Positions 6,045 to 21,041 of a stretch of 64,000 nt of DNA are shown one piece after another. The translations under genes were made by a program, and so were the position numbers. This DNA is from Polynucleobacter sp. MWH-P3-07-1 (GTDB lineage Bacteria; Pseudomonadota; Gammaproteobacteria; Burkholderiales; Burkholderiaceae). Every line of letters starts with the position of its first letter. Position 1 is the first letter of the stretch. The notes under the pieces were generated by a model. That model was not told the DNA's origin and made no database searches. It saw only the letters and a list, made by a program, of their open reading frames with translations. The stretch spans positions 1,116,001 to 1,180,000 of the forward strand of contig NZ_CP061296.1 of NCBI RefSeq assembly GCF_018687555.1, written 5' to 3'.

Positions 6045-7370
6045 CTAATTTAAACAATTTAGATAAAAACGTTTGATTTCTTCATCACAGCTCACATCTT
6101 TGGCTTGAATAGGTCTTTGTAAAGTGATGCCCTCAATTGATCTGCAACGACTCAAAGCGACGTATACTTGACCAGAAGCAAAGGTTCCAGACGATAAGTC
6201 CACTTTGACTTTATCCAAAGTTTTGCCTTGACTCTTGTGAATGGTGACTGCCCATGCCAACATCAGCGGAATTTGTTCATAGGTGCCAATAATCTGAGGA
6301 GAAATCTTCCCTGACATCATGTCGTGCTCATAACGATAGGATTCCCATTGGTGGGTCGTGACCTCAACCGTATTGCTATAAGGGCCCTTCTGTACCAGTA
6401 CCTTCACTTTGTCGGGTAGCAATTCACGCACCACTCCTACCGTGCCATTCACCCAGCGTTTTGGAAAAGTAGGATCAGTGGCCGTAAACATCACCCGCGC
6501 GCCGACCTTTAATCCGAGCTTTGCTGCTGAAGGAAGATTACGCTCATCTACATTGAACTTACCCGTCGACTTACTGGCATAGGTTTTGATTTCAGTCTCT
6601 AGAGCTCTCAGTCCTGCCCCATTAATTTGATCTGCTCGTGCATTGGTGGTCGTCAGCGTAATGGTTTGATCATCGATCTCTTTGGCATTAGTAAAACACT
6701 CATGATTGAGAATATCTAAAGCTTCATCGATGTCTTGGTTAATCCGAATGCGATTGAGCAATTCAGCAAAGCGTTCATCTTTTTGCCGAAAGATCTTGCT
6801 CAACTCAATCATGGTGACATCTTTCCGATGGAGGGCCATGGCATAGAAGAAATAAGGACCTTCGTAACCGCGCTGCGAGAGCACTTCCATATCGCCACTG
6901 GAGACTACTGGCGGCAACTGAAATAAGTCACCCACAAAGAGTACTTGTATGCCCCCAAACGGTTTACCTTTATGGGGACCGTTTTCTCGTAAGAAGAGAT
7001 CCATGGCATCCACTAAATCAGCCCGCACCATGGAGATTTCATCAATGATGAGTAAACGGATATCTTTATAGAGTCGTTTATCGCGCAATGGCTTGATATC
7101 TTCCTCAGGAAAGATCAAGCGCGGAGGGAGTCTAAAGAAGGAATGAATCGTGACGCCCTTCACTTGCAAGGCAGCTACACCTGTTGGGGCAACCACGACA
7201 ACATTGCCAGGGATATGCTCCCTGAGATAGCCAATCAAGGTCGTCTTGCCGGTACCGGCTTTGCCGCTCACAAAGATATAAGGATCTTGCCGCTCAATCG
7301 CATCAATCACGGCCTGGTAGTCAGGGGTGATCTCAATTTCGGATGAATCGGGGGTGCTAGGTAAGGACAT
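6045..7370 (-). CDS. Pif1-like AAA-family DNA helicase
   Basis: A 441-aa superfamily 1B helicase. The Walker A motif GKAGTGKT is at residues 36-43, the Walker B DE at 110-111 (LLIIDEISM), and a glutamine-containing DLFQLPPV motif follows. Late motifs are TIHKSQGKTLDKVKVDL and VALSRCRS near the C-terminus. Pif1-type helicases unwind 5' to 3' and resolve G-quadruplexes and other DNA structures. The bacterial role is less studied. It has no obvious operon partner: a broken barrel gene lies downstream and a diguanylate cyclase upstream, on the same strand but separated by small gaps. Start ATG at 7370 precedes a short acidic N-terminus. Confidence 0.85.
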   Translation of the reverse strand: MSLPSTPDSSEIEITPDYQAVIDAIERQDPYIFVSGKAGTGKTTLIGYLREHIPGNVVVVAPTGVAALQVKGVTIHSFFRLPPRLIFPEEDIKPLRDKRLYKDIRLLIIDEISMVRADLVDAMDLFLRENGPHKGKPFGGIQVLFVGDLFQLPPVVSSGDMEVLSQRGYEGPYFFYAMALHRKDVTMIELSKIFRQKDERFAELLNRIRINQDIDEALDILNHECFTNAKEIDDQTITLTTTNARADQINGAGLRALETEIKTYASKSTGKFNVDERNLPSAAKLGLKVGARVMFTATDPTFPKRWVNGTVGVVRELLPDKVKVLVQKGPYSNTVEVTTHQWESYRYEHDMMSGKISPQIIGTYEQIPLMLAWAVTIHKSQGKTLDKVKVDLSSGTFASGQVYVALSRCRSIEGITLQRPIQAKDVSCDEEIKRFYLNCLN

Positions 7371-7397: not shown

Positions 7398-8225
7398 CTA
7401 GAGCCCATTTGATAGCGCGCACTGATTTCTGCCTGCTGTTTTAGCCTGATACATAGCTTGATCACAGCCTTGATAGTATTGTCTAAGGATATTTGCAGCA
7501 AATTCATCATGCTTCTGTTCGGGGTCGAACACCGCAATTCCAATGCTGATGGAAATGTGAATTTCAACGCCGGCAACATTGGCAATCGCTTCTTTAGCTA
7601 TATGTTTGCGAAGGCGTTCTGCAACTTCGAAAGCGTGAACTTGGTCGGTGTCTGGAAGTGTTACCAAGAATTCTTCACCACCTACTCGGCCAAAAATATC
7701 AATTGCCCTCAATTCCGCTTGACAACATTTTGTGAGGTTTAGTAGTACGGTATCACCAACCCAATGCCCATGGGCGTCATTAATCAGCTTGAAGTGATCA
7801 ATATCAATCATCAAAAAAGCTAATGGATGTTTAGTTCGAATACTTCTTTCAATCTCTAATAAGGTTCTTGAAAATGTCTCTGGACGACTGAGTGCACCAG
7901 TTAAAGAGTCTGTCTTATTAATTTGCGCAAGCGTTAGATTGGTATTTTCTAAATCATTTAGCAAGCGCTTAATATAGAGAGTGCCTAACAAAATGAGTGA
8001 GGAAATCACTGTAGCAAGCGCTGCGTCTAATAAATTCAGATTGCCATCATTCAAGAAGTCAAATAATGGGGTAACGCGTCTTCCCAGCATCAGAGTGTAT
8101 GCAATAGAAAGACATGCAAAAGTTTTACGGTAAGACTGGGTTTTTAACAGCAAGTAAATTGAAAATCCAACCGCCATCAATTGGGCAATGAACGCTAAGA
8201 GATAGAGTCCAATACCCGTCATCAT
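7398..8225 (-). CDS. Membrane diguanylate cyclase (GGEEF)
   Basis: A 275-aa protein with about three N-terminal membrane segments (residues 3-25, 35-50 and 66-86) followed by a complete GGDEF domain. The active-site motif is GGEEF at 182-186, a catalytically competent variant. The inhibitory I-site RxxD is present as RAID at 173-176, so product feedback is expected. DIDHFKLIND supplies the metal and substrate aspartates. It makes c-di-GMP from two GTP. It begins 3 nt after an HD-GYP phosphodiesterase gene, so synthesis and breakdown enzymes are probably co-transcribed. It sits at the left edge of the polysaccharide island. Confidence 0.92.
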   Translation of the reverse strand: MMTGIGLYLLAFIAQLMAVGFSIYLLLKTQSYRKTFACLSIAYTLMLGRRVTPLFDFLNDGNLNLLDAALATVISSLILLGTLYIKRLLNDLENTNLTLAQINKTDSLTGALSRPETFSRTLLEIERSIRTKHPLAFLMIDIDHFKLINDAHGHWVGDTVLLNLTKCCQAELRAIDIFGRVGGEEFLVTLPDTDQVHAFEVAERLRKHIAKEAIANVAGVEIHISISIGIAVFDPEQKHDEFAANILRQYYQGCDQAMYQAKTAGRNQCALSNGL

Positions 8226-8228
8226 GAT

Positions 8229-9449
8229 TTATTTACCCTCAAGAATTTTTTGCAAGACTTGCTCACCCTCAAGCACAAATGCTGCATCAACTACAGAGGC
8301 GTCTAATTTGCTACCGGCTTCTGCACGAATCTCTTTCATGGCTGCATCCAAGCCCAAGCCTGGTCGATAAGGTCGATGTGAGGACATTGCCTCAATGGTG
8401 TCTGCCACCGCCAGAATTCTGCCCTCAATACTAATCTCATCCCCCTTCAAGCCTTGTGGGTACCCACTGCCATCTAAACGTTCGTGATGCTGTCGGACCA
8501 TATCAGCAATGGGCCATGGAAATGGAATGTCTTTTAAGATTTGATAACCAGAGTCTACGTGCCCCTGAACCAATTGCATCTCGATACTTGTCAAGCGGGA
8601 TGGCTTAGTCAAGATCTCGGAGGGCACTGACATCTTGCCAATGTCATGCACCATAGCCGCCATGTACAAAGCCTGCACCCGCTCTTCAGACCAGTGCAAT
8701 TGACGAGCAATCGCCATCGAAATTTCTGCAACTCGTTTTTGATGGCCTGCAGTGTAGGGGTCTCTCCACTCCATTGTCCTGGACATTGCCTCAATAGTGG
8801 CTCGCAACGATGTAGCAAGACGCTCTTGAATCAACTCTTTTTCATGAATCTGATCGTCTAATTGATGTTGACGCTCAATCGCCCTGAGACCAAATCCAAT
8901 TTCCTTTGCCAGACTTTCAAAAAGAATGACATCCGTGGGAGCAAAAGCGCTGGGAATTTTTGAGTAGACCAGCAAGACTCCGAATGGATGATCGCCCCCA
9001 TCGGGAATGGGTGCGCCCAGTGCGGAGCGGATGCCGAATTTTTCACTGAGTTTGCGCCAAGCTAAAAAATTGTCATCTGTTTGTGTATCTTCAATAATGC
9101 AAGACTGCCCAGTGCGAATGACCACTCCCGCTGGACCAAGGCCGCTTGCCTGCTGATCTGACCAGCTCACTTGAATTTCATTGGTATAGGCAATGGCCTC
9201 ACCAGCGGCGCCTAAAAATCTGACTGTCTTATTTTCATCATCCTCTGCCTTGCCAACCCAAGCCAAGACATACGGTCCTTGCGCTGCAATCGCAGAGCAA
9301 ACTTCCTGAATCAGTAAATTGGTTGACTCTGCCCTCGCCAATGCTGCCGCAGCTTCCGCAAAAGCCGATAAAGCCCACCGTTGTTTCTGCAAATCAAATG
9401 CAGGAATACTCGGGGCTGGGCTAGGTGCGATATCTTTTAAATTGCTCAT
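8229..9449 (-). CDS. GAF and HD-GYP domain c-di-GMP phosphodiesterase
   Basis: A 406-aa cytoplasmic protein. An N-terminal GAF-like sensor covers roughly residues 25-195, followed by a short coiled coil and an HD-GYP domain. The metal-binding HD dyad is at 268-269 (MVHDIGKM) and the diagnostic HHERLDGSGYP stretch at 321-331, so the phosphodiesterase looks intact. HD-GYP enzymes hydrolyse c-di-GMP to pGpG or GMP. What its GAF domain senses is unknown. It is the first gene of a pair with the diguanylate cyclase 3 nt downstream. It is divergent from the alanine-rich protein and the wecB-nfrBA cluster. Confidence 0.92.
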   Translation of the reverse strand: MSNLKDIAPSPAPSIPAFDLQKQRWALSAFAEAAAALARAESTNLLIQEVCSAIAAQGPYVLAWVGKAEDDENKTVRFLGAAGEAIAYTNEIQVSWSDQQASGLGPAGVVIRTGQSCIIEDTQTDDNFLAWRKLSEKFGIRSALGAPIPDGGDHPFGVLLVYSKIPSAFAPTDVILFESLAKEIGFGLRAIERQHQLDDQIHEKELIQERLATSLRATIEAMSRTMEWRDPYTAGHQKRVAEISMAIARQLHWSEERVQALYMAAMVHDIGKMSVPSEILTKPSRLTSIEMQLVQGHVDSGYQILKDIPFPWPIADMVRQHHERLDGSGYPQGLKGDEISIEGRILAVADTIEAMSSHRPYRPGLGLDAAMKEIRAEAGSKLDASVVDAAFVLEGEQVLQKILEGK

Positions 9450-9531
9450 TTATTCATTATGAATCTAAAAAAGCACTATTAATATTTATTTAAATTCAAG
9501 GTATATATTTGATCTAGAACGAGTAAATGCC

Positions 9532-9559
9532 TTGTAAGTTCAATTAAAAAGGCTAGATA
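9532..9559 (+). promoter_or_regulatory. Candidate sigma-70 promoter for the alanine-rich protein
   Basis: TTGTAA at 9532-9537 and TAGATA at 9554-9559 are separated by 16 nt, and the ATG follows 30 nt later. The boxes are only partial matches to consensus, so this is a weak call made on position as well as sequence. Confidence 0.3.
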
Positions 9560-9588
9560 CTGAGAGAGCCAACAAAGCGAGAACAAAA

Positions 9589-10080
9589 ATGACTAGCGAA
9601 ATTGAAAAAATTTATACCAAATTACTGAGCCTAGAAGCTGAAGTAAGCAATCTGCGTCAGGGATATATTGTTGTGAATCAACGATATACAGAGGCTGTTG
9701 GCGCACTAAAAACCCTCACTAACAGCGCCTTAGAGGCTGCCAAACGTGCCGCCATTGCAGCTGAAAAGGCATTAATCGCCGCACAAAAATCGTCGGATGC
9801 GGCCAATTTAGCCGCCTCAAAGCAAGCGATTGACGCTGCTGAGGCAGCAGCAGATGCAGCAGCAGCATCAGCCCAGGCAGCAATTGAAGCAGCAGCAGCA
9901 GCGGCGGCAGCAGCAGCGGCTGCGGCTGCGGCGGTCGCTCATCAAGCCGAGGAATCCTCTATCCAGGCTTCTGCCGAAGCTGCCGAGGCAACCAAAAGAG
10001 CTGCTGAGGCTGCAGCCGAGGCTGTCAGAATTTCCAACACGACTTTTGAAAGTATTCGTTCGGCCCGCAACAAAATTTAA
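9589..10080 (+). CDS. Alanine-rich, predicted all-helical protein of unknown function
   Basis: A 163-aa protein with no family I recognise. Residues 1-40 look like a normal coiled coil (EIEKIYTKLLSLEAEVSNL). Residues about 45-150 are more than half alanine, with regularly placed Glu, Lys, Gln and Ser, and an unbroken run of 15 alanines at 101-115. It has no signal peptide, membrane helix or cysteine. The composition suggests one long helix or a helical bundle, as in phasin-like, histone-H1-like or antifreeze-like proteins, but none of these can be claimed. The coding DNA is rich in GCA/GCG triplets and could change length by slippage. It lies on the same strand as wecB, 129 nt upstream. Confidence 0.7.
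   Translation: MTSEIEKIYTKLLSLEAEVSNLRQGYIVVNQRYTEAVGALKTLTNSALEAAKRAAIAAEKALIAAQKSSDAANLAASKQAIDAAEAAADAAAASAQAAIEAAAAAAAAAAAAAAAVAHQAEESSIQASAEAAEATKRAAEAAAEAVRISNTTFESIRSARNKI
9889..9933 (+). repeat. GCN trinucleotide run encoding 15 consecutive alanines
   Basis: Fifteen GCA/GCG/GCT codons follow one another without interruption inside the alanine-rich gene, flanked by further GCA clusters from about 9844. Mixed third bases show that the run is not a fresh pure repeat. The GCA-rich parts could still slip in frame without breaking the gene. Confidence 0.85.
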
Positions 10081-10102
10081 ATAAAGTGATAGTCGTTATC
10101 GA

Positions 10103-10108
10103 TATAAT
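10103..10108 (+). promoter_or_regulatory. Possible -10 box upstream of wecB
   Basis: A perfect TATAAT lies about 100 nt before the wecB ATG, but no good -35 box is found 16-18 nt upstream. If used, it would give the polysaccharide operon its own promoter and a long leader. An activator-dependent promoter would explain the missing -35. Confidence 0.25.
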
Positions 10109-10209
10109 CCTTTAAGTCTTTGTTCTATATGATTTATTTTGATTAATTACTAAATGGAATTACGGGCCAATACCGAAATACTCTTTGGTCCAACACCCTT
10201 TGCCACAAT

Positions 10210-11307
10210 ATGCCGAAGATCCTCATTGTTTGTGGCACCCGACCTGAAATTATTAAATTAGCTCCGGTCTACCATTACTTAAAAAAACAGTCTTGGGCTG
10301 ATGTCCTTTGGTTGCATACGGGGCAACATGACGAGATGTCGAAAAAGATCTTGGCCTGCTTCGATATTAGTCCCGACATTACTTTAGTGCGAGAGGGAGA
10401 AAACCTTTCTGACTTCACTATTGGTCTGCGCAGACAACTCGACAAAGCACTACAAGAATTGCATTGCGATATGGTGATCGTGCAAGGTGATACCGAGAGC
10501 GCATTCGTTGGCGCCCTTGCCGCTTTCTATCAAAGAATTCCAGTGGCTCACGTTGAGGCCGGTCTGCGCACCTATAACCTCGACCGCCCCTTCCCCGAAG
10601 AGGGTCTCCGCCAGATGATCACCAGAATTACCGCCTTGAATTTTGCGCCCACCCCAGGAGCAGAAGCAGCACTCCTGAAAGAAGACATTAAGCCCTCCGC
10701 CATCTTTTTGACCGGCAATACGGTGATCGATGCGCAACACTGGATTATTGAGCACCACCATATTCAAGCCCGGAAACTAGAGCAGAAACAAATATTAATC
10801 ACGATGCATCGTCGTGAAAATTGGGGCGATGAAATTGAGCAAGCCTGTCGTGCGATTGCCCATTTAGCCAGGCAGCATTCTGCAATGCAATTCCTGTTTC
10901 CGGTCCATCTCAACCCCCTTGTGAAAGACCAGGTTTATCCCATACTCGGAGAGTTAGCCAATGTGCGCCTGGTTGCTCCATTGGATTACTTGGTGATGCA
11001 ACAAGCGATTGCGAATGCTTGGCTCATTCTGACTGACTCTGGTGGCATCCAAGAGGAGGCCCCCACCTTTGGCGTGCCTGTACTGGTTCTCAGAAAAGAG
11101 ACTGAACGGCCTGAGGCAATTGATGCTGGTTGCGCCAAAATTATTGGCACCAATCAATCGAACATCATCACTGAAGTCGAGACGCTGTGGAATAACAGTG
11201 AGCTCTATAGCTCAATGCAAGCTAAGCAAAATCCTTTTGGCGATGGTAAGGCGAGCGAACGAATTGCAGACACAATTCGTCAATACCCATTTAAAAAACC
11301 GATCTAA
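10210..11307 (+). CDS. wecB: UDP-N-acetylglucosamine 2-epimerase (non-hydrolysing)
   Basis: A 365-aa cytoplasmic enzyme of normal WecB length. It interconverts UDP-GlcNAc and UDP-ManNAc. Recognisable motifs are GTRPEIIKLAPV near the N-terminus, HTGQHDEM, QGDTESAF (catalytic aspartate near residue 95), EAGLRTYNLDRPFPEE (catalytic glutamates) and the C-terminal TDSGGIQEEAP that binds UDP. It stands directly upstream of nfrB (9-nt gap) and nfrA, not in an enterobacterial common antigen or capsule cluster. That position suggests it supplies ManNAc-type precursor to the NfrB glycosyltransferase. A preceding TATAAT is the only promoter-like element seen. Confidence 0.92.
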   Translation: MPKILIVCGTRPEIIKLAPVYHYLKKQSWADVLWLHTGQHDEMSKKILACFDISPDITLVREGENLSDFTIGLRRQLDKALQELHCDMVIVQGDTESAFVGALAAFYQRIPVAHVEAGLRTYNLDRPFPEEGLRQMITRITALNFAPTPGAEAALLKEDIKPSAIFLTGNTVIDAQHWIIEHHHIQARKLEQKQILITMHRRENWGDEIEQACRAIAHLARQHSAMQFLFPVHLNPLVKDQVYPILGELANVRLVAPLDYLVMQQAIANAWLILTDSGGIQEEAPTFGVPVLVLRKETERPEAIDAGCAKIIGTNQSNIITEVETLWNNSELYSSMQAKQNPFGDGKASERIADTIRQYPFKKPI

Positions 11308-11316
11308 AAGCAAGCA

Positions 11317-13536
11317 TTGATTTCTGATATCCAAATTTGGCTAGTCGATCTTGTATCGATCTATATGTATGGCTTGAAGTATCTTGCCATGACAATAGCC
11401 GTCATCATTTTTTTTAGTAGCATTGATGATGTATTCATTGATATCACCTATTGGATCAGGCGAGCCTGGCGTTCACAAACCATTTATAAGAAAAATGAGC
11501 GTCTTCAGTACACCGCACTCAATGAGGTCCCTGAAAAACCCCTAGCCATCATGGTTCCTGCCTGGAACGAAACTGGCGTAATTGGCAAGATGGCTGAGTT
11601 AGCAGCTACCACTATGGAGTATGAGAACTATCACGTCTTTGTGGGTACCTACCCCAACGATCCCGATACCCAAAAAGATGTGGATCGCGCTTGTGCCATC
11701 TTCCCCAATGTGCATAAAGTCATTTGTGCACGACCAGGTCCAACCAGCAAGGCAGATTGCCTCAATAATGTCTTGGATGCCATATTGCAGTTTGAGCGTC
11801 AAACCAACCTCGAATTCGCTGGATTTATTCTGCATGATGCAGAAGATGTTATTTCTAGTATGGAGCTCAAGCTCTTTAATTATCTAGTGAATAAAAATGA
11901 TCTGATTCAGGTTCCTGTTTATCCATTTGAACGCAAATGGAATAACTTCACCAGCATGCACTACTTAGACGAATTCACTGAGCTGCATGGTAAAGACATT
12001 CCCATTCGTGAAGCGGTAGCCGGACAAGTCCCCAGCGCAGGGGTTGGAACCTGCTTTAGTCGTCGTGCAGTGCTAGCCTTACTGGCTGATGGCGATGGCA
12101 TTGCCTTTGATATCAAGAGTCTGACGGAGGACTACGACATTGGCATTCGTCTGAAAGAAAAAGGACTGAAAGAAATCTTTGTACGCTTTCCCGTCCTGAA
12201 ACCAGAAGAATTGGAAGATGAAACATCTAAACCATTTGGACAAGACATTACGGATGCCAATGTGATTTGTGTCCGAGAATATTTTCCCGATACGATTGAA
12301 ACAGCTGTGAGGCAAAAAGCTCGCTGGATTACTGGTATTGTTTACCAAGGCTATAAAACGCATGGCTGGACTAAGAATTGGTTACTGAACTATTTTTTGT
12401 GGCGTGATCGCAAAGGCGCAGTTACCAACTTCATTAGCTTTGCAGCTACATTGATTTTGATTCAGCTCACCTTTCTCTGGCTCTACCAGCACCTATGGCC
12501 AGATGCTTATCACTTCCTCTCCATATTCTCGGGTGACAAGTGGTTTGTTGCTGTGTTGATGATCAATCTCTATCTCATGATCAATCGTATGCTGCAGCGA
12601 ATTTATTTTGTCTCCAGCTATTACGGCTTAAGAGAAGGGCTAATGTCTATTCCTCGTCTATTTTGGGGAAACTACATTAACTTTGTTGCCAATTGGCGGG
12701 CGCTCAGAGCCATCATCAAACAAGGGGACCCCCATCGAGTAGCGTGGGATAAAACCATGCATGACTTCCCTTCCCTAGGACAAGAAAATCACGAACGCCA
12801 GATGTTGGGTCAAATATTGATTGAGCAAGGTGCCATTAGTGAAGCAGAATTAAATACTGCGCTACTCAAGAAAACAAGGGGTCTTAAGATTGGTAACTGG
12901 TTGATTCATACCGGTAAGATTAATTCTGAAGAATTAGCCAAAGCCCTATCTACTCAATCTGGCGTGAGCTCTGAATCGGTCGATGCGTATGCTATTCCTC
13001 CAAATATCATCAAACTACTACCCCAAGCACTCGCCTTGCACTACGCAGCTTTACCGGTTCGCAAAGAGGGCAGTAAATTAGTCTTGGCCTCGGAGTCGAA
13101 TATCGATCCCGTTTCCCTAGCTGCGATCGCTCGCAAGCTCAAGATGCCAGTCAAAAATGTACTAGCAAGGCATGGTGAAATTACCGTCGGCCTCAGACAC
13201 TGGTACGCCAATATTAAAACGGAGGATCCCAAGCAACTGCTTGAAAATGCGATTAGCGCTGGAAAAATTACCAGAGCCCAAGCAGATAAAATCTGGGATT
13301 ATTTTGTCCCGCGTCAATTTTTGTTTGCTGAAATCTTAATGTCTCTTGGACGCATTGACAAAGCCTCATTAAATGCCCTACTTCTTCAGCATGAAAATAG
13401 CGCGGAAAACTTAAGTCAATTCTTGGTTGGAAACAATATTATTTCTGACGAGACTCTAAAAGAAGCGCTAGATCTCCAAAAAGAGTTGCAGCCTAACATC
13501 AAGGACTTGATTGAAAAAGAGGCCGGAGCCAGATGA
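11317..13536 (+). CDS. nfrB: NfrB-like inner-membrane glycosyltransferase with c-di-GMP-binding MshEN domain
   Basis: A 739-aa protein, close to E. coli NfrB. Membrane helices flank a family 2 glycosyltransferase domain with PAWNE, DAED at 174-177, TED at 270-272 and QKARW (QxxRW) at 333-337, as in processive polysaccharide synthases. The C-terminal third is a MshEN/T2SSE-N module. The first motif, MLGQILIEQGAIS (496-508), and second, KIGNWLIHTGKI (524-535), follow the c-di-GMP-binding consensus. A weaker copy lies near 666-720. The TTG at 11317 is preferred over ATG 11365 because it restores the N-terminal segment expected before the first helix, although no clear ribosome-binding site is seen. 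nfrA overlaps its end by ATGA. Confidence 0.88.
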   Translation: MISDIQIWLVDLVSIYMYGLKYLAMTIAVIIFFSSIDDVFIDITYWIRRAWRSQTIYKKNERLQYTALNEVPEKPLAIMVPAWNETGVIGKMAELAATTMEYENYHVFVGTYPNDPDTQKDVDRACAIFPNVHKVICARPGPTSKADCLNNVLDAILQFERQTNLEFAGFILHDAEDVISSMELKLFNYLVNKNDLIQVPVYPFERKWNNFTSMHYLDEFTELHGKDIPIREAVAGQVPSAGVGTCFSRRAVLALLADGDGIAFDIKSLTEDYDIGIRLKEKGLKEIFVRFPVLKPEELEDETSKPFGQDITDANVICVREYFPDTIETAVRQKARWITGIVYQGYKTHGWTKNWLLNYFLWRDRKGAVTNFISFAATLILIQLTFLWLYQHLWPDAYHFLSIFSGDKWFVAVLMINLYLMINRMLQRIYFVSSYYGLREGLMSIPRLFWGNYINFVANWRALRAIIKQGDPHRVAWDKTMHDFPSLGQENHERQMLGQILIEQGAISEAELNTALLKKTRGLKIGNWLIHTGKINSEELAKALSTQSGVSSESVDAYAIPPNIIKLLPQALALHYAALPVRKEGSKLVLASESNIDPVSLAAIARKLKMPVKNVLARHGEITVGLRHWYANIKTEDPKQLLENAISAGKITRAQADKIWDYFVPRQFLFAEILMSLGRIDKASLNALLLQHENSAENLSQFLVGNNIISDETLKEALDLQKELQPNIKDLIEKEAGAR

Positions 13537-16001
13537 AGCTCGATCTTAAAGTCCTTGTTCTTCTCTCTCTCATCGCCTTGCCAAGTGTTTTTCACCTAGC
13601 AAGTGCAGAGAGCGCTTCGGAAGAGCCCCGCTCTTTTCAAGAGTTCCTCACTTACCCGCATGTGGAAAAAGGCTTATCTGCTATTGCGAATCATGATTAC
13701 GTTAGAGCAGTAGCAGAATTCAAGCAAGCTAGGTCTTGGTCAACCGAGAGTCCTGAGTCTGCGCTGTATTTGGCAAATGCCTATAACTTGGATGGTCAGT
13801 ATCAAAATGCAGTCGAAGTCCTGGAAGCGCAATTGATTTATACCCCCAAAAATGCTGCCATCGTAAGCGTGCTTAGCAATAATCGCAAAGCCTACGATCT
13901 CCAAATACTCGAAAAGGGTCGCGCACTAGAAAACCATATTTCCGAACTTCAGGCCTATCTCACTGATACCAAGCCTTATTTCTATGATGCTTTCGACGAA
14001 CATGGCTGGGTTGATCTATTCGCCAAAGCTTTCGCCAGAGAACCTGAACGCATATTGAGTTTCACTCCACGCTTTACCTCTAACCAAGCATATCAGGACC
14101 AGATCGTATTAGAAGCTGCTGTCGCCACTGGAAATACAGTCTTTGCCTCTGCTTACATCAAAGAACTTGCTTCAAAACTCAATCAAGATCCTCAGCTTGT
14201 TGAATTTCTGAGTTATCAGCTTGCTAAGGATGGAGGAAGCGCGCAAGCCTTTCAAATTTTGATGCAGGCTTATCCTTTTGCTGATGCTAGCCCCCTACTA
14301 CAAAAGAAGTTGGTTCTCCGTTTAGCAACTCTGATTGAACAAAATCCCAAACTGGTGAGCGTCACCGAGCTGGGTATTCTAGCTAAGCCGATCAATTCCT
14401 CTGACCTAAGAGGCATACAAGCCAATTTATTTGCTGCACTCAAAAACTGTAGCGTAGTCCGGTCTCTCTTAAGCGATTATTCAACTCCGCACAGTGAAAC
14501 TGAATGGCGCCTACTTGGACAATGCTATCAAGCCAACCAACCGGGATTGGCTGAATATGCCTTCCAAAAAGCAATGGCGATGAACCCCAATATCGTCAAT
14601 ACTCGTGCTTATGCCTATCAAGCATTTGCGGTTAAAAATTATTCTCAATCACTTTCGGCATGGCGCTCAATGGATACCAAAGAAATGTCCAATCGAGATC
14701 TTGAAAGTGCCGCCCTCACTGCAATCAGCGCACAAGAACCGCAATACGCTTCCGACTATCTTGGTCAACTCGATCAACGCAATGCTCCAAAAGATGCGCT
14801 CTATTGGTGGCTTGAGGCACAACTTGAACTCAAAGAGCATCCCAGTATTGCCGCTGAAGATCTAAAAAAAGCGATTGCGCTTAATCCTACGGTGACCTAT
14901 TACAGTCAACTCGCCTCAATTCAGCAAGAATTAAATCAAACTGCTGAAGCCACCAGCTCCTTGGAGGCTGCCCTCAAGCTTGATCCCAGCAATACCAATA
15001 CCCAAGCGTCTTTAGCTTATGCTTATTATCAAAATGGGCAGATGGCTCAGGCACGCACACTCTTTCTGTCGGCAAACCAAGCTCAGCCTGACGACTCTCG
15101 AACTATTAAGCAACTCGCTTATACCGATCAAAAGCTAGGCCTCAATGAGGAGGCGCTCAAGTACACCGAACTTGCGATTGATGATTACCATCTCCAAGCG
15201 CCAGGGGATTTAACTGCTGATAACCAAAATCAGCTATTTGGCTTGCAGCGCATGCATGAAGATCTGACTCGCCGCTGGACATTCTCAGTAGATGCTACAG
15301 GTGGAAATCAAGTAACTACCGTTCCCAACTCTGGTCAGCCAGGCCTCACGTCTCGGAGCTACTCACAAGCTGAGGCTGCCTATCGACTAGGAGATCCTGC
15401 CATTGATGATGGCAAAACCATTTCGGCATATTCCAGAGTATTTGCAGGAAGTGGAACTTTAGATACTGCGCTTCCCCTATATGCACCAATGGCTGCTGCA
15501 GGCCTGCGATGGAAACCGATCGGCAGTCAAAACATCAATCTTGCTGTTGAAGAGCAAACTCCGCTAGATCACGTAGCAGGTAATCAAACTCAGGCCATGC
15601 TGAGAGCAAGCGCCTCTTTCTTCAACAGTGGCGCCTATAGCGATGATTGGCATCCAACTGGACCAGGCTGGATTGCTCAAAACCTCTATCTCGATGCAGC
15701 TCACTATGTTACTAGCGGCCTGACATCCCTCACCTCAGATTACCGAATTAGCTACCACGACAAAATTGAAATAGGGCAAACGATTGAGCCTTATACCCAC
15801 CTACAATTAAACACACTCAATAATCAAGTGAATCATGATTTACGAGCTGGACTAGGGGTACGCTGGAACTACTGGAGCGGGAATACCCAATACAACGCAT
15901 ACCCCAGCAAGGTGTATATTGGACTTGAGGCTCAGCATGCTTTCACTACCTACTTAAATGAAAAGAATGTGATCTTTCTATCTTTAGGGGGTAGATGGTG
16001 A
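13533..16001 (+). CDS. nfrA: NfrA-like outer-membrane TPR/beta-barrel protein
   Basis: An 822-aa exported protein. It has a signal peptide of about 26 residues (ending LASA), then TPR-type helical repeats over roughly residues 40-560 (for example EATSSLEAALKLDPSN and QASLAYAYYQNGQMAQA). A barrel-like C-terminal domain starting near residue 580 ends in SLGGRW, whose terminal aromatic is typical of outer-membrane proteins. E. coli NfrA, the phage N4 receptor, has the same plan but is longer (about 990 aa). In exopolysaccharide systems such a TPR-barrel forms the export channel. The start overlaps nfrB by 4 nt and the end overlaps the next gene by 7 nt, so the three are almost certainly co-translated. 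Confidence 0.85.
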   Translation: MKLDLKVLVLLSLIALPSVFHLASAESASEEPRSFQEFLTYPHVEKGLSAIANHDYVRAVAEFKQARSWSTESPESALYLANAYNLDGQYQNAVEVLEAQLIYTPKNAAIVSVLSNNRKAYDLQILEKGRALENHISELQAYLTDTKPYFYDAFDEHGWVDLFAKAFAREPERILSFTPRFTSNQAYQDQIVLEAAVATGNTVFASAYIKELASKLNQDPQLVEFLSYQLAKDGGSAQAFQILMQAYPFADASPLLQKKLVLRLATLIEQNPKLVSVTELGILAKPINSSDLRGIQANLFAALKNCSVVRSLLSDYSTPHSETEWRLLGQCYQANQPGLAEYAFQKAMAMNPNIVNTRAYAYQAFAVKNYSQSLSAWRSMDTKEMSNRDLESAALTAISAQEPQYASDYLGQLDQRNAPKDALYWWLEAQLELKEHPSIAAEDLKKAIALNPTVTYYSQLASIQQELNQTAEATSSLEAALKLDPSNTNTQASLAYAYYQNGQMAQARTLFLSANQAQPDDSRTIKQLAYTDQKLGLNEEALKYTELAIDDYHLQAPGDLTADNQNQLFGLQRMHEDLTRRWTFSVDATGGNQVTTVPNSGQPGLTSRSYSQAEAAYRLGDPAIDDGKTISAYSRVFAGSGTLDTALPLYAPMAAAGLRWKPIGSQNINLAVEEQTPLDHVAGNQTQAMLRASASFFNSGAYSDDWHPTGPGWIAQNLYLDAAHYVTSGLTSLTSDYRISYHDKIEIGQTIEPYTHLQLNTLNNQVNHDLRAGLGVRWNYWSGNTQYNAYPSKVYIGLEAQHAFTTYLNEKNVIFLSLGGRW

Positions 16002-16900
16002 AAAAGTTCAGCGTACAAATCCTATTACTATTTGCCCTCCTCTTACCACTCAGCACGATGGCTGTTACAGCCATTTTTTACCAACCCCAAGAGTCTGATA
16101 AACAGATTGCCCCTCAAGAATGGCAGAGTATCTTTCATCTCTTGAAGAAAAAGGGATTTGATACTTTAGTCATCCAGTGGACGCAATACGGAGACTTTCT
16201 CAAAAGCGCAGAAAATCAAACTTGGCTTAAAGAGCGCGCAGATCAAGCAGCTGCAGAAAAATTGCAATTGATTATTGGCCTCTCAGGTGATCCAGAAATG
16301 TTTAATCGCTTAAAAGAGCCCTCCGCTGCGAGTGAAGACTATTTGATGAGGCTCAGAAGAGCTGATCTTCTCTTAGTGGAAAATTGGAAGAAGAATGTCG
16401 CACAAGACAAAATAGTAGGCTGGTATCTGCCACTAGAAATTGATGACCGTGCTTGGCGCGATCCAAAAGCATTTGATATTCTTAGAAAACATCTTCGAGA
16501 AGAGATTCAAAGAATTCGGATGCAATCAGAAAAGCCGATTTATATTTCGAGCTTTTTTACCGGGAATATGTCGCCTGATGATTACAGCAAGATGATTGCA
16601 AGCCTTCATGAAATCACAGGTCTGCATATTTGGATCCAAGACGGCGCTGGTACGGGCAAGCTGAACCTTTCTGAGAGGGCTTTATATTTGACACCGCTCA
16701 CGAAATGCAACGCACCAATTGCTTCAGGATTAATTTTTGAAACCTTTAAACAAACACAACATGACCAGACCTTTGCGGCTGAGTCTCTACCGCCACAATT
16801 ACTGGCGCAAAGATTAAAGCTCAGAGCACCTTGCCAGCTTGATAGCGCTTTCTTTGAATTACGCTATCTATTCGAGGACAGCTTTAAAGCGAGGAATTAA
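15995..16900 (+). CDS. DUF4434-like exported TIM-barrel protein
   Basis: A 301-aa protein with a signal peptide (about residues 1-24, ending TMA). The body resembles DUF4434 proteins, predicted glycosidase-like TIM barrels: AIFYQPQ at the start, GFDTLVIQWTQYG, and IVGWYLPLEIDD, which holds acidic residues that could be catalytic. It overlaps nfrA by 7 nt with an AGGGGG ribosome-binding site inside nfrA. The E. coli nfr locus also has a third gene of similar size, ybcH, but orthology is not shown here. By analogy with PgaB it may trim or process the secreted glycan in the periplasm, which is inference. Its last 17 nt overlap the convergent diguanylate cyclase gene. Confidence 0.7.
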   Translation: MVKKFSVQILLLFALLLPLSTMAVTAIFYQPQESDKQIAPQEWQSIFHLLKKKGFDTLVIQWTQYGDFLKSAENQTWLKERADQAAAEKLQLIIGLSGDPEMFNRLKEPSAASEDYLMRLRRADLLLVENWKKNVAQDKIVGWYLPLEIDDRAWRDPKAFDILRKHLREEIQRIRMQSEKPIYISSFFTGNMSPDDYSKMIASLHEITGLHIWIQDGAGTGKLNLSERALYLTPLTKCNAPIASGLIFETFKQTQHDQTFAAESLPPQLLAQRLKLRAPCQLDSAFFELRYLFEDSFKARN

Positions 16901-18437
16901 TTGACTTAGATCCGCTATAGATTTGAATATTATTCTTGCCAGTATTCTTAGCGAGATACATTGCGGCATCGGCATTCTTCATCAGTTCAGCATCATCCAA
17001 GGCATGATCAGGGAAAAGTGCTATCCCGATGCTGACCGAAGTATGCAACACTAAATCATCCAATGTAATCGGCATCGATATTGCAGAGCGAATTTTTTCA
17101 GCAACAATATAGGCGTCTTTTTCGGACTCAACCTTTGGCAAGAGGACAACAAACTCATCTCCCCCTACTCGACCGATGATATCCGCATCACGTATAGAGC
17201 CCATCATGCGCTTTGCGACTGTAATCAATAGGCTATCGCCAACGCTATGGCTGTAGACATCATTCGTTGCTTTAAGGTTATCTAAATCAATAAATAAGAG
17301 TGCAAGTTTTTCATTATTTTTTCTGGCCTGATCCAAAGCTTGCTCAAGGCGATCAGAGAAAAACAATCGGTTAGGTAACTTAGTTAGAACATCATGATGC
17401 GCGAAATACTGTGCTTTTGCATTACGTTTATAGCCCCGAATTAGCAAGTAAGCACCCAAGCAAATAATGGCGATACTGAAAAGTGTTGTGTAGGCCAAAC
17501 TAATGAGCGCGCTATACCAACGCGCTAAATAAATCTTCTTGCTGACAATAGCTCCAACAATGAGTGGGTAGCCCTCAACCTTACGGTAAGAGAGCATCCG
17601 CTCACCCGGATTGCTACCCCGCGTAAATCCCGGCAAATCAGTAATGATGACTCCATCATCGATATTGTCTTGGGACAATGAGGACTGAATCAGACCTCCC
17701 GTATTAAGCCCCCCAATCAGGTTATCCACTAATGGCCATCTAGTCAGAAGGCGATGGTCATCTCGATATAGCACAACTGATGAACCCTCCCCAAGACTCA
17801 TGCCAATCTTTTCATAGAGAGAAGAAAAAATTTCTACAGAAACACCAACCAATATCAAACCCAAAAACTCATCTCTTGCACCATTCACTCGTTTAGCAAG
17901 ATAAAAAACCCATTTGCCAGTTCCCTTATTTCTGACGGGTAGACTGAAAAATGTGGCTTGGTCATCGTGCTTGCTTAACCATTGAAAGTAATCTCGATCG
18001 GCGAGATTGATGTCTGGGGGCGGGAATGATCTTGAGAAATTGAGAATCTTGCCGTTTTTATCGACAAAAGTTGCCACATCAAGTACTGGGTTTGATTTCA
18101 CCTTACTCAATAGCAAGGTGTATTGCTGCTTTTGAGAAGCAAAGTGTATAAATTCTTTCTCGGTAGAGATCTCCGAAAACCTTTCAATTTCATCCAAACT
18201 TTGCAATGCAGTATTCGCCGAATAAATCGTTTGCGTTGTGTGGGCAGACAAAATTTCAGTCAAGTTGGCCATTTGCTCAATGCGGCCCTTGATGATGTTA
18301 TCGCGCAAAATCAGAGCAGAAATTAACGCATTGAGGATAAATATGGAGATGAGAACAGCACCCACTAGGGTGATGAGCTTAATGTTTCTGCGTACCTTTT
18401 CTTGTGTAGCGTAATCCATTGCCAATTGCTCTGCCAT
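16884..18437 (-). CDS. Cache-type sensor diguanylate cyclase (GGDEF)
   Basis: A 517-aa inner-membrane protein. A first membrane helix (about residues 20-46) is followed by a periplasmic double-Cache-like sensor region (about 50-300), a second helix (about 310-340) and a GGDEF domain. The active site GGDEF is at 425-429 and the I-site RDAD at 416-419, so it should be active and feedback-inhibited. DIDN is replaced by DLDN in LLFIDLDNLKATND, which is common. It follows the HD-GYP gene by 6 nt. Its end overlaps the DUF4434 gene tail to tail, which links it physically to the polysaccharide cluster. The ligand of the sensor is unknown. Confidence 0.92.
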   Translation of the reverse strand: MAEQLAMDYATQEKVRRNIKLITLVGAVLISIFILNALISALILRDNIIKGRIEQMANLTEILSAHTTQTIYSANTALQSLDEIERFSEISTEKEFIHFASQKQQYTLLLSKVKSNPVLDVATFVDKNGKILNFSRSFPPPDINLADRDYFQWLSKHDDQATFFSLPVRNKGTGKWVFYLAKRVNGARDEFLGLILVGVSVEIFSSLYEKIGMSLGEGSSVVLYRDDHRLLTRWPLVDNLIGGLNTGGLIQSSLSQDNIDDGVIITDLPGFTRGSNPGERMLSYRKVEGYPLIVGAIVSKKIYLARWYSALISLAYTTLFSIAIICLGAYLLIRGYKRNAKAQYFAHHDVLTKLPNRLFFSDRLEQALDQARKNNEKLALLFIDLDNLKATNDVYSHSVGDSLLITVAKRMMGSIRDADIIGRVGGDEFVVLLPKVESEKDAYIVAEKIRSAISMPITLDDLVLHTSVSIGIALFPDHALDDAELMKNADAAMYLAKNTGKNNIQIYSGSKSINSSL

Positions 18438-18443
18438 TACTAC

Positions 18444-19754
18444 TTACCCCTCAGCATACTGCTGGGCAATGCGATGAAAAAATGGCTTTTCCAAAATAAA
18501 GGCTTCCACCACAGCTGGGTCGAAAATCTTCCCTTTATGGCGCGCGATTTCTTCGCACGCCGCTTCATGCGTCCATTTTTCCTTATAAACACGCTCACTG
18601 ACTAATGCATCGTACATATCTGCGAGACACATAATGCGAGCTGCCAAGGGAATGCTTTCACCAGCGAGGCCGCGAGGATAACCGCTGCCGTCCCACTTTT
18701 CGTGATGACCCCCAGCAATATCAATTGCCATCTCTAAAACCTTCAAGCTTTTGTCGCTATCTGCATTGGCGGCTTTTAATACTCTCTCACCCAGAGCGGC
18801 ATGGGTCTTCATCACTTCCCACTCTTCGGGATTGAGCGAGCCATTTTTTTTCAAAATGTTATCGGGGATACCGACCTTGCCAATATCATGCAGGGGAGCT
18901 GCGTTAACCATATGCTCGATATCAGACGGGGTAAGTTGGTCTTCGTATATCCCCATACTTTTTAGTCGCTCCGCCAATCTTTGCACGTAAGCTTGTGTCC
19001 TGAGGATATGGTCTCCCGTCTCGTTATCACGCACCATGGACAGCGCATTCAAGCTATGAAGTAATCCACTTTCAATCGCTCTAGAACTACTTCGATGCAA
19101 CTTCCACAGTGCGTCCAAATAGTAGTGGGTAATGACCATGCAAGAAAGAATGACGCACAGGGAAGATAGAACCCGAATTGAAAATCCGATGGCACCCTCA
19201 TGAAATAGATACTCAATCTGCTCGCCTGGCCAGTCGTATAAAACAACTAGTCTTACTACACGTAAAACAATTTGCAGAACGATGATGCCAATCAAAATCT
19301 GGATTTGCTTAGCTGAATTATGTTGAACAACTGAACGTAGCTCCCATAACTGCCAGATGGAAAAGCCCGTTATGAAGGCACTGACAATATAAACCCGACT
19401 TACTGCATCACCGAACCCAAACAGGAAAAGAAAGGCGATCGATAGGATGGAGAACCCAACCCACACATAAGGGCTAATTTGTTGAGAAATATTATTTCGC
19501 CAAGATCGGAACAGTAGCGCAAGGCAAAGCATTCCGCCAATCAACAAAAAATTAGACAAGACCAGGAAAAACAGGCTCCCCCAGGAAGCGATAAAGAAGG
19601 AAAGGGAAGACAGCGCTAGGAAGGAAAGACTGGCAGGCCAATACCAAATTTTTTCAGTTTCTTTATATTCATCACGCTGAGAAACAAAGCCCAGCATCAA
19701 ACCCATCAAAATAATGAAGGTAGAGAAATAAAAGGTCTGGTTAACGAGATCCAT
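18444..19754 (-). CDS. Membrane-anchored HD-GYP c-di-GMP phosphodiesterase
   Basis: A 436-aa protein. About seven predicted membrane helices fill residues 8-220, followed by an intact HD-GYP domain. The HD dyad is at 289-290 (LHDIGKVGIPDNIL) and HHEKWDGSGYP at 350-360. It probably degrades c-di-GMP in response to a membrane or lipid-phase signal. It precedes the GGDEF gene by 6 nt, repeating the order HD-GYP then GGDEF seen at 9449-7398. The tRNA-His gene lies 74 nt upstream on the same strand, so some transcripts may run from the tRNA promoter into this gene. Confidence 0.92.
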   Translation of the reverse strand: MDLVNQTFYFSTFIILMGLMLGFVSQRDEYKETEKIWYWPASLSFLALSSLSFFIASWGSLFFLVLSNFLLIGGMLCLALLFRSWRNNISQQISPYVWVGFSILSIAFLFLFGFGDAVSRVYIVSAFITGFSIWQLWELRSVVQHNSAKQIQILIGIIVLQIVLRVVRLVVLYDWPGEQIEYLFHEGAIGFSIRVLSSLCVILSCMVITHYYLDALWKLHRSSSRAIESGLLHSLNALSMVRDNETGDHILRTQAYVQRLAERLKSMGIYEDQLTPSDIEHMVNAAPLHDIGKVGIPDNILKKNGSLNPEEWEVMKTHAALGERVLKAANADSDKSLKVLEMAIDIAGGHHEKWDGSGYPRGLAGESIPLAARIMCLADMYDALVSERVYKEKWTHEAACEEIARHKGKIFDPAVVEAFILEKPFFHRIAQQYAEG

Positions 19755-19828: not shown

Positions 19829-19905
19829 TGGGGCGAACGACGGGGCTCGAACCCGCGACAACCAGAATCACAATCTGGGACTCTACCAACTGAGCTACGT
19901 CCGCC
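19829..19905 (-). tRNA. tRNA-His (anticodon GTG)
   Basis: The reverse strand folds into a full cloverleaf. A 7-bp acceptor stem (with one G-T wobble) is extended by the G(-1):C73 pair characteristic of tRNA-His. The D arm is AGCTCAGTTGGTAGAG, the anticodon stem CCAGA/TCTGG encloses TTGTGAT with anticodon GTG, and the T arm is GCGGGTTCGAGCCCCGT. The 3' CCA is encoded. A good promoter lies 15 nt upstream. Confidence 0.97.
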
Positions 19906-19958: not shown

Positions 19959-21041
19959 TTAGGCAGTTTCGAGCTCAAATGCAGCCCAATCCCCAAGGGT
20001 TAGACTGGCATCGAGGAAAAAATCAGCAATCGCTGCTTTACTCTGGACTTTGGCTAGAGCATGGTGGTCTGAGAGTCTTTGACGCCAATAGCGTGAACCT
20101 GCCCTACCATGGGCAAGGCCCAAAATATGTCTTGTAAAAGCACCGATATAGAAAGGCTTGCCTTTAGCTTGGCATTCTTCAAACCAACTTTGCACTTGCT
20201 TGACTAAGGCAATCTGAATCCGGTGCCATTCGGTTTCACTAAAAAGATAACCAGCAGCCTCGCCATGCGTATTAATCAAATCATCCCACCCCAATAACAT
20301 TGCCGGAAAATGATAGGCTGCCCTCCCCACCATGAAACCATCAAAGTCTTGCCAATGGCCTGCAATCTGATCATTCGTTTCTAGGCCGCCGTTGAGCAGG
20401 ACATTTAGCTTCGGGAATTGTTTCTGAGCATCAATGCGCAACTGTTTTGCCACTTCATAATGCAAAGGCGGCTTACTGCGATTTTCTTTGGGTGATAAAC
20501 CTTTGAGCACTGCATTACGCGCATGAATCGTGACTTGACTGGCCCCTGCATCGGCGACAGCCAAAATGAAATTGAGGGCAAATTGGTAATCTGCTTGAGA
20601 GCTGGACGCATCCATGTGATCCAAGCCCAAGCGATGCTTTACAGAGATCGGAATATTGACCGCACCTTTCATCGCCTTGACACAATTAGCCACCAACTCG
20701 GGCTCTGCCATCAAGCATGCACCAAATGCGCCACGTTGAACACGCTCTGAAGGGCATCCACAATTCAGATCAATCTCATCGTAGCCCCACTGCTGAGCAA
20801 GTTCTGCTGACTTAGCCAAATCACTGGGCTCTGATCCTCCCAATTGCAATACCACTGGGTGTTGATCTTCTGAATAATCTAAATGACGAGGCACATCACC
20901 GTGAAGCAGAGCACCTGTGGTAACCATCTCGGTATACAGCACTGCTTCTTTTGTCAGCACGCGATGAAACGATCGGCAATGGCGATCTGTCCACTCCATC
21001 ATGGGTGCGACCGCGAGACGTTTTTTATGAATGGCTGTCAT
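19959..21041 (-). CDS. dusA: tRNA-dihydrouridine synthase A
   Basis: A 360-aa FMN enzyme that reduces uridines in the tRNA D loop using NADPH. The N-terminus has RLAVAPMMEWTDRHCRSF. The catalytic cysteine lies in NCGCPSERVQRGAFGACLM near residue 100, the HARNA motif follows, and FMN phosphate binding is at GFMVGRAAYHFP. Length and motif spelling fit DusA rather than DusB or DusC. The start codon overlaps the stop of the small exported-protein gene as TGATG. It is followed by the tRNA-His promoter on the same strand. Confidence 0.93.
   Translation of the reverse strand: MTAIHKKRLAVAPMMEWTDRHCRSFHRVLTKEAVLYTEMVTTGALLHGDVPRHLDYSEDQHPVVLQLGGSEPSDLAKSAELAQQWGYDEIDLNCGCPSERVQRGAFGACLMAEPELVANCVKAMKGAVNIPISVKHRLGLDHMDASSSQADYQFALNFILAVADAGASQVTIHARNAVLKGLSPKENRSKPPLHYEVAKQLRIDAQKQFPKLNVLLNGGLETNDQIAGHWQDFDGFMVGRAAYHFPAMLLGWDDLINTHGEAAGYLFSETEWHRIQIALVKQVQSWFEECQAKGKPFYIGAFTRHILGLAHGRAGSRYWRQRLSDHHALAKVQSKAAIADFFLDASLTLGDWAAFELETA

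Follow-up and report, generated by a model that had tools for sequence, protein, structure and literature searches.

The window analysed here is a stretch of 64,000 nucleotides from Polynucleobacter sp. MWH-P3-07-1 (genome G000; contig NZ_CP061296.1, positions 1,116,001 to 1,180,000), to whose whole length all coordinates refer. Between the gene of a PIF1-like helicase and the genes for tRNA-His and dusA it carries a block of about 12 kb, in which the operon wecB-nfrB-nfrA-ybcH is surrounded by genes for the turnover of cyclic di-GMP (c-di-GMP). With a probability of roughly three in four, this block is an exchangeable cassette which unites a signal with its output, here a glycan of the Nfr type, at a hotspot of the genus Polynucleobacter located between PIF1 and tRNA-His-dusA. 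The content of the site varies among relatives, one transfer between species has taken place, and one related genome retains the scar of a deletion. The genes of the block and its boundaries are the following.

6045..7370, minus strand: PIF1-like helicase gene (Pfam PIF1, 106 bits), the left boundary, outside the cassette
7398..8225, minus strand: GGDEF protein GGD1 (PF00990, 123 bits; RAIDIFGRVGGEEF), a predicted active diguanylate cyclase with an I-site
8229..9449, minus strand: GAF-HD-GYP protein, gafHDGYP (HD_5 147 bits, GAF_2 53.6 bits), a predicted c-di-GMP phosphodiesterase
9589..10080, plus strand: Ala-rich open reading frame (ORF) of 163 aa, with no Pfam or NCBIfam match
10210..11307, plus strand: wecB, a predicted UDP-N-acetylglucosamine (UDP-GlcNAc) 2-epimerase for the supply of UDP-N-acetylmannosamine (UDP-ManNAc) (TIGR00236, 413 bits, cut-off 210)
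11317..13536, plus strand: nfrB, a GT2 synthase with a C-terminal MshEN domain (NF008411, 1145 bits; MshEN 38.0 bits, cut-off 23.1)
13533..16001, plus strand: nfrA, a predicted TPR/outer-membrane exporter (NfrA_C, 130 bits, cut-off 25)
15995..16900, plus strand: ybcH (DUF4434), a probable periplasmic auxiliary protein (PF14488, 118 bits, cut-off 30)
16884..18437, minus strand: dCache-GGDEF protein, dCacheGGD (dCache_1 58 bits, GGDEF 159 bits; RDADIIGRVGGDEF), a predicted active diguanylate cyclase with a periplasmic sensor
18444..19754, minus strand: HD-GYP protein tmHDGYP (HD_5, 108 bits), a predicted phosphodiesterase
19829..19904, minus strand: tRNA-His(GTG) (ARAGORN, Rfam tRNA), the right boundary, with its 3' end facing the cassette
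19959..21041, minus strand: dusA, the outer right boundary, outside the cassette

A preliminary description, made from the letters of the window, had seen wecB, nfrB, nfrA and a DUF4434-like gene running tightly in one direction, and its gene positions proved exact: the order is wecB-nfrB-nfrA-ybcH, all on the plus strand, with spacings of +9, -4 and -7 nt. It had also assigned the synthase and the exporter to the NfrB and NfrA families, and the domain content revealed by profile searches agrees with this. NfrB is identical to its Escherichia coli counterpart in 441 of 732 residues (60%) and keeps all the motifs of a processive GT2 enzyme (DxD, TED and QxxRW), while NfrA and YbcH share 311/820 and 121/293 residues, respectively, with the E. 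coli proteins, the comparison sequences being those of the plasmid record NZ_OY754386. WecB reached 309 bits against PDB 1f6d in a profile search; for YbcH, the corresponding search of the PDB gave no match at E up to 1. The operon contains the components of the Nfr system and its phage N4 glycan receptor (NGR), namely a motif-bearing GT2 protein with MshEN, an NfrA-type protein, a DUF4434 protein encoded in the same operon, and wecB. In the light of the NfrB identity and of the retained motifs, the best reading of its predicted output is an NGR-like glycan which would be activated by c-di-GMP and which, as proposed in the preliminary description, phages might use as a receptor.

The operon is bracketed by two GGDEF/HD-GYP pairs on the minus strand, GGD1 and the GAF-HD-GYP protein on one side and the dCache-GGDEF protein and the second HD-GYP protein on the other. 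The preliminary description had placed such pairs on both sides, and both the domain matches and the intact signatures bear it out: the RxxD I-site is kept in both GGDEF proteins of the block, the GAF-HD-GYP protein has HDIGK and HHERLDGSGYP, and its counterpart has HDIGK and HHEKWDGSGYP. By eye, the N-terminal part of GGD1 and the N-terminal half of the second HD-GYP protein are hydrophobic. The gene of the dCache-GGDEF protein converges with ybcH, the two overlapping by 17 nt. The Ala-rich ORF and the tRNA-His gene are additions to the preliminary description, which is silent on both.

The genome is represented by one contig of 1,711,040 bases and is 100% complete. It totals two GGDEF and two HD_5 matches. 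Of the matches listed by place, the one GGDEF and the one HD_5 match fall in the block; as the four signalling proteins of the window themselves belong to these families, the block holds all four. A whole-genome search gave no match to PilZ, and the single MshEN match is that of NfrB. With no other GGDEF, HD-GYP, PilZ or MshEN match in the genome, the circuit of the block is probably the whole c-di-GMP system of the cell. The module had been called self-contained in the preliminary description, and this holds more strongly than the sequence of the window alone could tell, given that the genome has its GGDEF, HD-GYP and MshEN matches nowhere but in the block.

The boundaries of the site are widespread in the genus: dusA was found in 169 of 186 genomes, tRNA-His(GTG) in 35 of 35 relative loci scanned (34 genomes), and the adjacency of PIF1 and dusA is common among relatives. 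The site was typed in 94 of the 186 genomes, and in 48 of them it is empty, i.e. with no recognised surface system or c-di-GMP gene, small remnants included. The others hold cellulose (bcs) genes (13 genomes; BcsA with PilZ, BcsC, BcsG and GH8), bcs pieces plus a GT2 pair (1), a type I secretion system (T1SS; 7 genomes; two-domain ABC exporter, HlyD and OEP), a GT2 protein with a short barrel (Dgt2; 5), the pga genes for poly-N-acetylglucosamine (PNAG; 4 genomes; PgaC, PgaA and PgaB), a Tad pilus (4; RcpC, secretin, T2SSE-type ATPase and T2SSF proteins), nfr (3), other systems (6, a class to which G110, G073 and G078 were assigned) and other systems without c-di-GMP genes (3). The GT2 proteins with a short barrel include a 433-aa GT2 protein, PgaC-like below the cut-off, which is encoded with a 312-aa protein weakly matching the PgaA barrel, beside GGDEF/HD-GYP genes (L044:11107-13343, with relatives in L046, L048, L064 and L054); this pair is a possible undescribed small exopolysaccharide system.

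The typed genomes derive from 79 labelled stretches (some repeating a genome), 20 more stretches originally chosen for nearby GGDEF and HD-GYP genes, and thus biased toward occupied sites, the loci of the NfrB search and the window itself. They were picked by eye and non-exhaustively (G160 and G129 being omitted), mainly have a dusA of about 87% identity or more on longer contigs, and the deeper branches of the genus lie outside them. Four genomes were excluded before typing, G152 for a contig end and G066, G176 and G019 for a stretch without dusA. For seven bcs genomes (G020, G041, G063, G006, G088, G097, G047) the type and the c-di-GMP genes were entered by hand and the adjacency to dusA was taken from coordinates, except in G047, whose dusA is on another contig. 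PIF1 was unreached within 20 kb of dusA in 7/7 T1SS, 3/4 Tad, 2/4 pga and 1/5 Dgt2 genomes, in the genome with bcs pieces and Dgt2, and in 5/6 of the class of other systems; a 20-kb stretch being too short here, only the tRNA-His/dusA side is demonstrated for these genomes.

Most of the occupants come with signalling enzymes. Four c-di-GMP proteins are present in each of the 3 nfr and each of the 13 plain bcs cassettes, and a genome with an occupied site has on average 5.46 GGDEF and HD-GYP matches (37 genomes), compared with 1.67 in the 48 empty ones. Off-site counts are alike, with means of 1.42 in 26 polysaccharide-occupied genomes and 1.67 in the empty ones, as estimated roughly by subtracting proteins from domains, a procedure which yields -1 for G076; the excess is therefore due to the site and partly inherent in the comparison, and a general excess of c-di-GMP genes in occupied genomes was rejected. 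The proteins of the site make up the entire GGDEF and HD-GYP count in 9 of the 26 polysaccharide-occupied genomes (G000, G039, G046, G034, G067, G081, G113, G115, G170), and 19 of the 48 empty-site genomes are without any GGDEF or HD-GYP match. None of these 19 is among the PilZ matches, and five have EAL-like matches (G010, G035, G045, G072, G087), which are weak save two over the cut-off in G087. The c-di-GMP bracket, which the preliminary description had seen around nfr, is not peculiar to it: at this site, cellulose, PNAG and other systems also have related enzymes on their flanks. Next to the GAF-HD-GYP gene, homologues of the Ala-rich ORF recur in several cassette types, and some empty sites contain remnants of it.

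Evidence for exchange comes from the comparison of G000 with the distant species G046, the one pair of species in which a transfer of nfr was tested. At fourfold-degenerate sites, the flanking genes have identities of 0.23 (PIF1) and 0.38 (dusA), compared with 0.64 for gafHDGYP, 0.66 for nfrB, 0.72 for nfrA and 0.71 for dCacheGGD; values from gafHDGYP to dCacheGGD span 0.56-0.72, and the outermost genes GGD1 and tmHDGYP have 0.59 and 0.49. The cassette being more similar than its flanks, the nfr and c-di-GMP genes crossed between distant species together, after the divergence of the flanks. No such contrast was found between G000 and the nearer G039 (flanks 0.48-0.75, cassette 0.53-0.76).

On a broader scale, the eight site states were mapped on a FastTree phylogeny of four flank genes from the 94 genomes, where the labels require at least 33 changes, far above the 7 that would suffice had each state arisen once; these values are to be read considering that flank genes may recombine with the site and that label shuffles ignore relatedness. 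The distinction between empty and occupied requires 25 changes (shuffled mean 31.2, minimum 22). Changes of cassette type were also counted on the trees of the c-di-GMP proteins, with the flank-tree value computed for the same genomes: 7 for gafHDGYP (shuffled mean 14.1, minimum 10; flank tree 10), 6 for GGD1 (13.0, 10; 9), 4 for dCacheGGD (6.8, 5; 6) and 3 for tmHDGYP (5.8, 3; 5). Since each of these trees needs fewer changes than the flank tree, the c-di-GMP enzymes tend to travel with their output.

The loss of a cassette is documented in G040, the DusA of which is 97% identical to that of the window. Its PIF1-dusA gap of 505 bp contains tRNA-His, a 185-bp stretch that agrees at every position with a segment close to the beginning of the HD-GYP gene of G039, and the last 149 bp of the GGD1 gene of G039 (in a 243-bp match of 99.6% identity which extends into PIF1). 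At the junction 11,986 bp of G039 are missing; a second gap, a small one, separates the tRNA from the HD-GYP piece. G040 thus bears a deletion scar, with about 12 kb gone; since G039 and G040 are separate species, the scar may have been imported by recombination rather than formed in place. G040 has no GGDEF, HD-GYP or, at 1e-5, EAL match and is outside the NfrB and PilZ match lists. Remnants are present in five further empty sites (G091, G072, G038, G103, G010).

In the genus as a whole, NfrB was matched in 14 of 186 genomes, with a decayed copy in G051 and one cut by the contig end in G109, and wecB adjoins nfrB in all 14 (in G051 as a fragment within the decayed operon). The preliminary description had staked its reading on the conservation of the flanking c-di-GMP genes, and these do recur at nfr in 8 of the 14 genomes: in full in G000, G039 and G046, and more loosely in G110 (with an intervening pseudouridine-synthase gene), G159, G137, G114 and G102. 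The identical order of nine genes in the two other species G039 and G046 places the arrangement beyond chance. The NfrB of the window is 96% identical to those of G039 and G046 and 63-71% identical to ten others compared in the genus (71% being a fragment), against 60% for the E. coli protein, which points to separate acquisitions. At the level of the order, NfrB matches occurred in 15 of 399 genomes, G000 included; outside the genus the c-di-GMP bracket was unseen in 14 nfr loci compared with reference proteins, except for L135, where a 416-aa gene with 38% identity to a GGDEF-EAL reference lies two ORFs past ybcH.

Two of the nfr loci deserve a separate description. In G051 (L030), wecB-nfrBA-ybcH is decayed into several frame-broken pieces near a DNA ligase gene. 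In G110 (L026/L129), dusA has nfr 5' of it and a T1SS cassette 3' of it, which shows that systems of this kind can occupy either side of the gene.

Several observations weigh against an exchangeable cassette with an Nfr-type output and have to be considered along with the evidence above. The proteins fall under the NCBIfam equivalog cut-offs, narrowly for NfrB (NF008411, 1145 vs 1170) and also for NfrA (NF007302, 538 vs 1223) and YbcH (NF007404, 271.5 vs 344), and are therefore best regarded as near relatives, not as certified orthologues. G000 has a weak EAL-like match below the cut-off (27.8 vs 31.3 bits) and may have additional c-di-GMP receptors of unrecognised kinds. The 33 label changes are fewer than in all 1000 shuffles (minimum 36, mean 41.2), a signal of some inheritance, and GGDEF or HD-GYP genes lie elsewhere in 29 of the 48 empty-site genomes. 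No c-di-GMP genes were found near nfr in G002 and G157, where a contig end truncates the stretch on one side, and the nfr stretches of G135, G153 and G109 are likewise cut. Furthermore, neither the eight genes of the block that were scanned for families nor the Ala-rich ORF was recognised as an integrase gene, and the 25-nt tRNA-His end occurs only once within the initial 30 kb of the window, even with up to 5 mismatches, leaving no attachment repeat. An integrase-driven tRNA island was rejected for nfr on these two grounds.

The c-di-GMP genes could instead be long resident at the locus, with only the output operon swapped between them. Related GGD1-gafHDGYP pairs, along with the Ala-rich gene, do occur with several outputs, so that the order is partly kept while the outputs differ, and the c-di-GMP trees beat the flank tree by small margins (2 or 3 changes). 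Fixed residence is nevertheless unlikely, being disfavoured both by the better fit of these trees to cassette type and by the c-di-GMP proteins of G046, which match those of G000 far better than the flanks do; the order around cellulose is also unlike that around nfr. A chance clustering of surface systems and c-di-GMP enzymes in a variable region would be consistent with the two PNAG cassettes (G005, G101) and the Tad site (G036) which have no c-di-GMP gene inside. It is very improbable against the four c-di-GMP proteins of every nfr and plain bcs cassette and the nine genomes with their full GGDEF and HD-GYP count at the site.

Another question is the nature of the polymer, as wecB might be linked for some other reason and the synthase might make a product without ManNAc. 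Even for E. coli, the ManNAc polymer is a postulate in the account of Sellner et al. 2021 (PMC8669472), and the NfrB of the window is 60% identical to the E. coli protein. Against this stand the presence of wecB beside nfrB in 14/14 genomes and its position as the sole Epimerase_2 match in a whole-genome search of G000. The only UDPG_MGDP_dh gene of G000 has UDP-glucose 6-dehydrogenase as its best model (478.8, cut-off 700) and is far under the WecC cut-off (135 vs 459); no WecC-type gene was found, other UDP-ManNAc users (WecG/TagA-type) not having been searched for. We regard a non-ManNAc product as doubtful.

Under the preferred reading of a signal-plus-output cassette, homology would assign the synthesis of UDP-ManNAc to WecB, its polymerisation at the inner membrane to NfrB when MshEN holds c-di-GMP, the passage of the chain through the outer membrane to NfrA, and assistance in the periplasm to YbcH. 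The two cyclases and the two HD-GYP phosphodiesterases would set the level of c-di-GMP, fed by a periplasmic ligand sensed by dCache and another ligand sensed by GAF. The cassette would be gained, lost and swapped, probably via homologous recombination between the conserved flanks, with selection possibly exerted by attachment or phages. We further consider it rather likely that in these streamlined freshwater bacteria a second-messenger circuit in its entirety, from the cyclases and phosphodiesterases to the receptor and the output, acts as a plug-in cassette, such that one recombination or deletion can add or remove all c-di-GMP signalling together with the surface structure under its control, and that different surface systems compete for one site.

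The linkage of nfr with wecB and with a diguanylate cyclase is already known and is not new. In E. coli, NfrB binds c-di-GMP with a Kd of 1 uM and DgcJ is needed for infection by phage N4; organisms whose other pathways lack a WecB homologue have one in direct association with nfrB, and a GGDEF gene accompanies the nfr operon in most pseudomonads, with wecB linked e.g. in P. soli (Junkermeier and Hengge 2021, PMC8669469). A ManNAc glycan, NGR, was proposed and the dCache domain of DgcJ remarked upon by Sellner et al. 2021 (PMC8669472). The locus resembles the E. coli system in the order nfrB-nfrA-ybcH, the domains, the GT2 motifs, the supply by WecB and the implication of a dCache-type cyclase, and differs from it in having wecB and the c-di-GMP enzymes within the same block, HD-GYP proteins as phosphodiesterases, and apparently the sole c-di-GMP circuit of the cell. 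With the Pseudomonas operons it shares the linked wecB and GGDEF genes, but here two cyclase and two HD-GYP genes bracket the operon, at a tRNA-His/dusA position common to other systems. The bcs and pga systems, which are under c-di-GMP control in other bacteria (PMC8669469), are likewise synthase-type exopolysaccharide systems and occupy the same site in relatives, with a different synthase and exporter and, in BcsA, a PilZ receptor domain.

The site also resembles the replacement flexible genomic islands of aquatic bacteria, Polynucleobacter included (Lopez-Perez et al. 2014, PMC4033161; Hoetzinger and Hahn 2017, PMC5644125), in which differing surface structures occupy a fixed position, with exchange between lineages across conserved flanks and a proposed phage pressure. 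As in such islands, differing gene sets lie at one conserved site, and the cassette is younger than its flanks in the G000-G046 pair. It departs from them in its occupants, which are T1SS, Tad pili or polysaccharides of the synthase type, in most cases accompanied by second-messenger enzymes, and in being often empty, in some cases with remnants. No c-di-GMP cassettes in Polynucleobacter were found among the literature titles and abstracts listed, and only an Antarctic-soil paper turned up on Polynucleobacter and N4-like phage. New here are the confinement of the c-di-GMP set of the genome to the block, the swappable site, the joint transfer of nfr and c-di-GMP genes, and the scar of G040. The interpretation given in the preliminary description is thus partly supported: the families, the self-containment and the conservation stood, the gathering of wecB and a cyclase with nfr is real and already published, and the nfr-specific bracket was not sustained.

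A separate element was noticed at the 3' end of tRNA-His in four genomes (G005, G080, G089, G112), where a BrnT toxin (PF04365, 92.5 bits) and a BrnA-type antitoxin (PF14384, 35.6 bits) form a 1.1-kb unit flanked by exact direct repeats of 26-49 nt (L119:1184-2312, L078:1197-2326, L131, L069). An integrase is absent from its listed ORFs, with families scanned in L119 only. An Rfam scan of the window and three loci returned tRNA only.

The specificity of c-di-GMP signals among many cyclases is an open question in the field. A cell of this type seems to possess a single circuit, which would permit the study of signal, receptor and output free of cross-talk, and G039 and G040, separate species with the cassette and with the scar, respectively, offer a natural comparison. 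The nfr module belongs to a set of interchangeable systems that share one site, and most of these pair signalling with output. The findings suggest that a single chromosomal site serves for the exchange of surface-attachment systems as units with their signalling. If true, this would bear on how planktonic bacteria switch between free and attached life and between sensitivities to phages.

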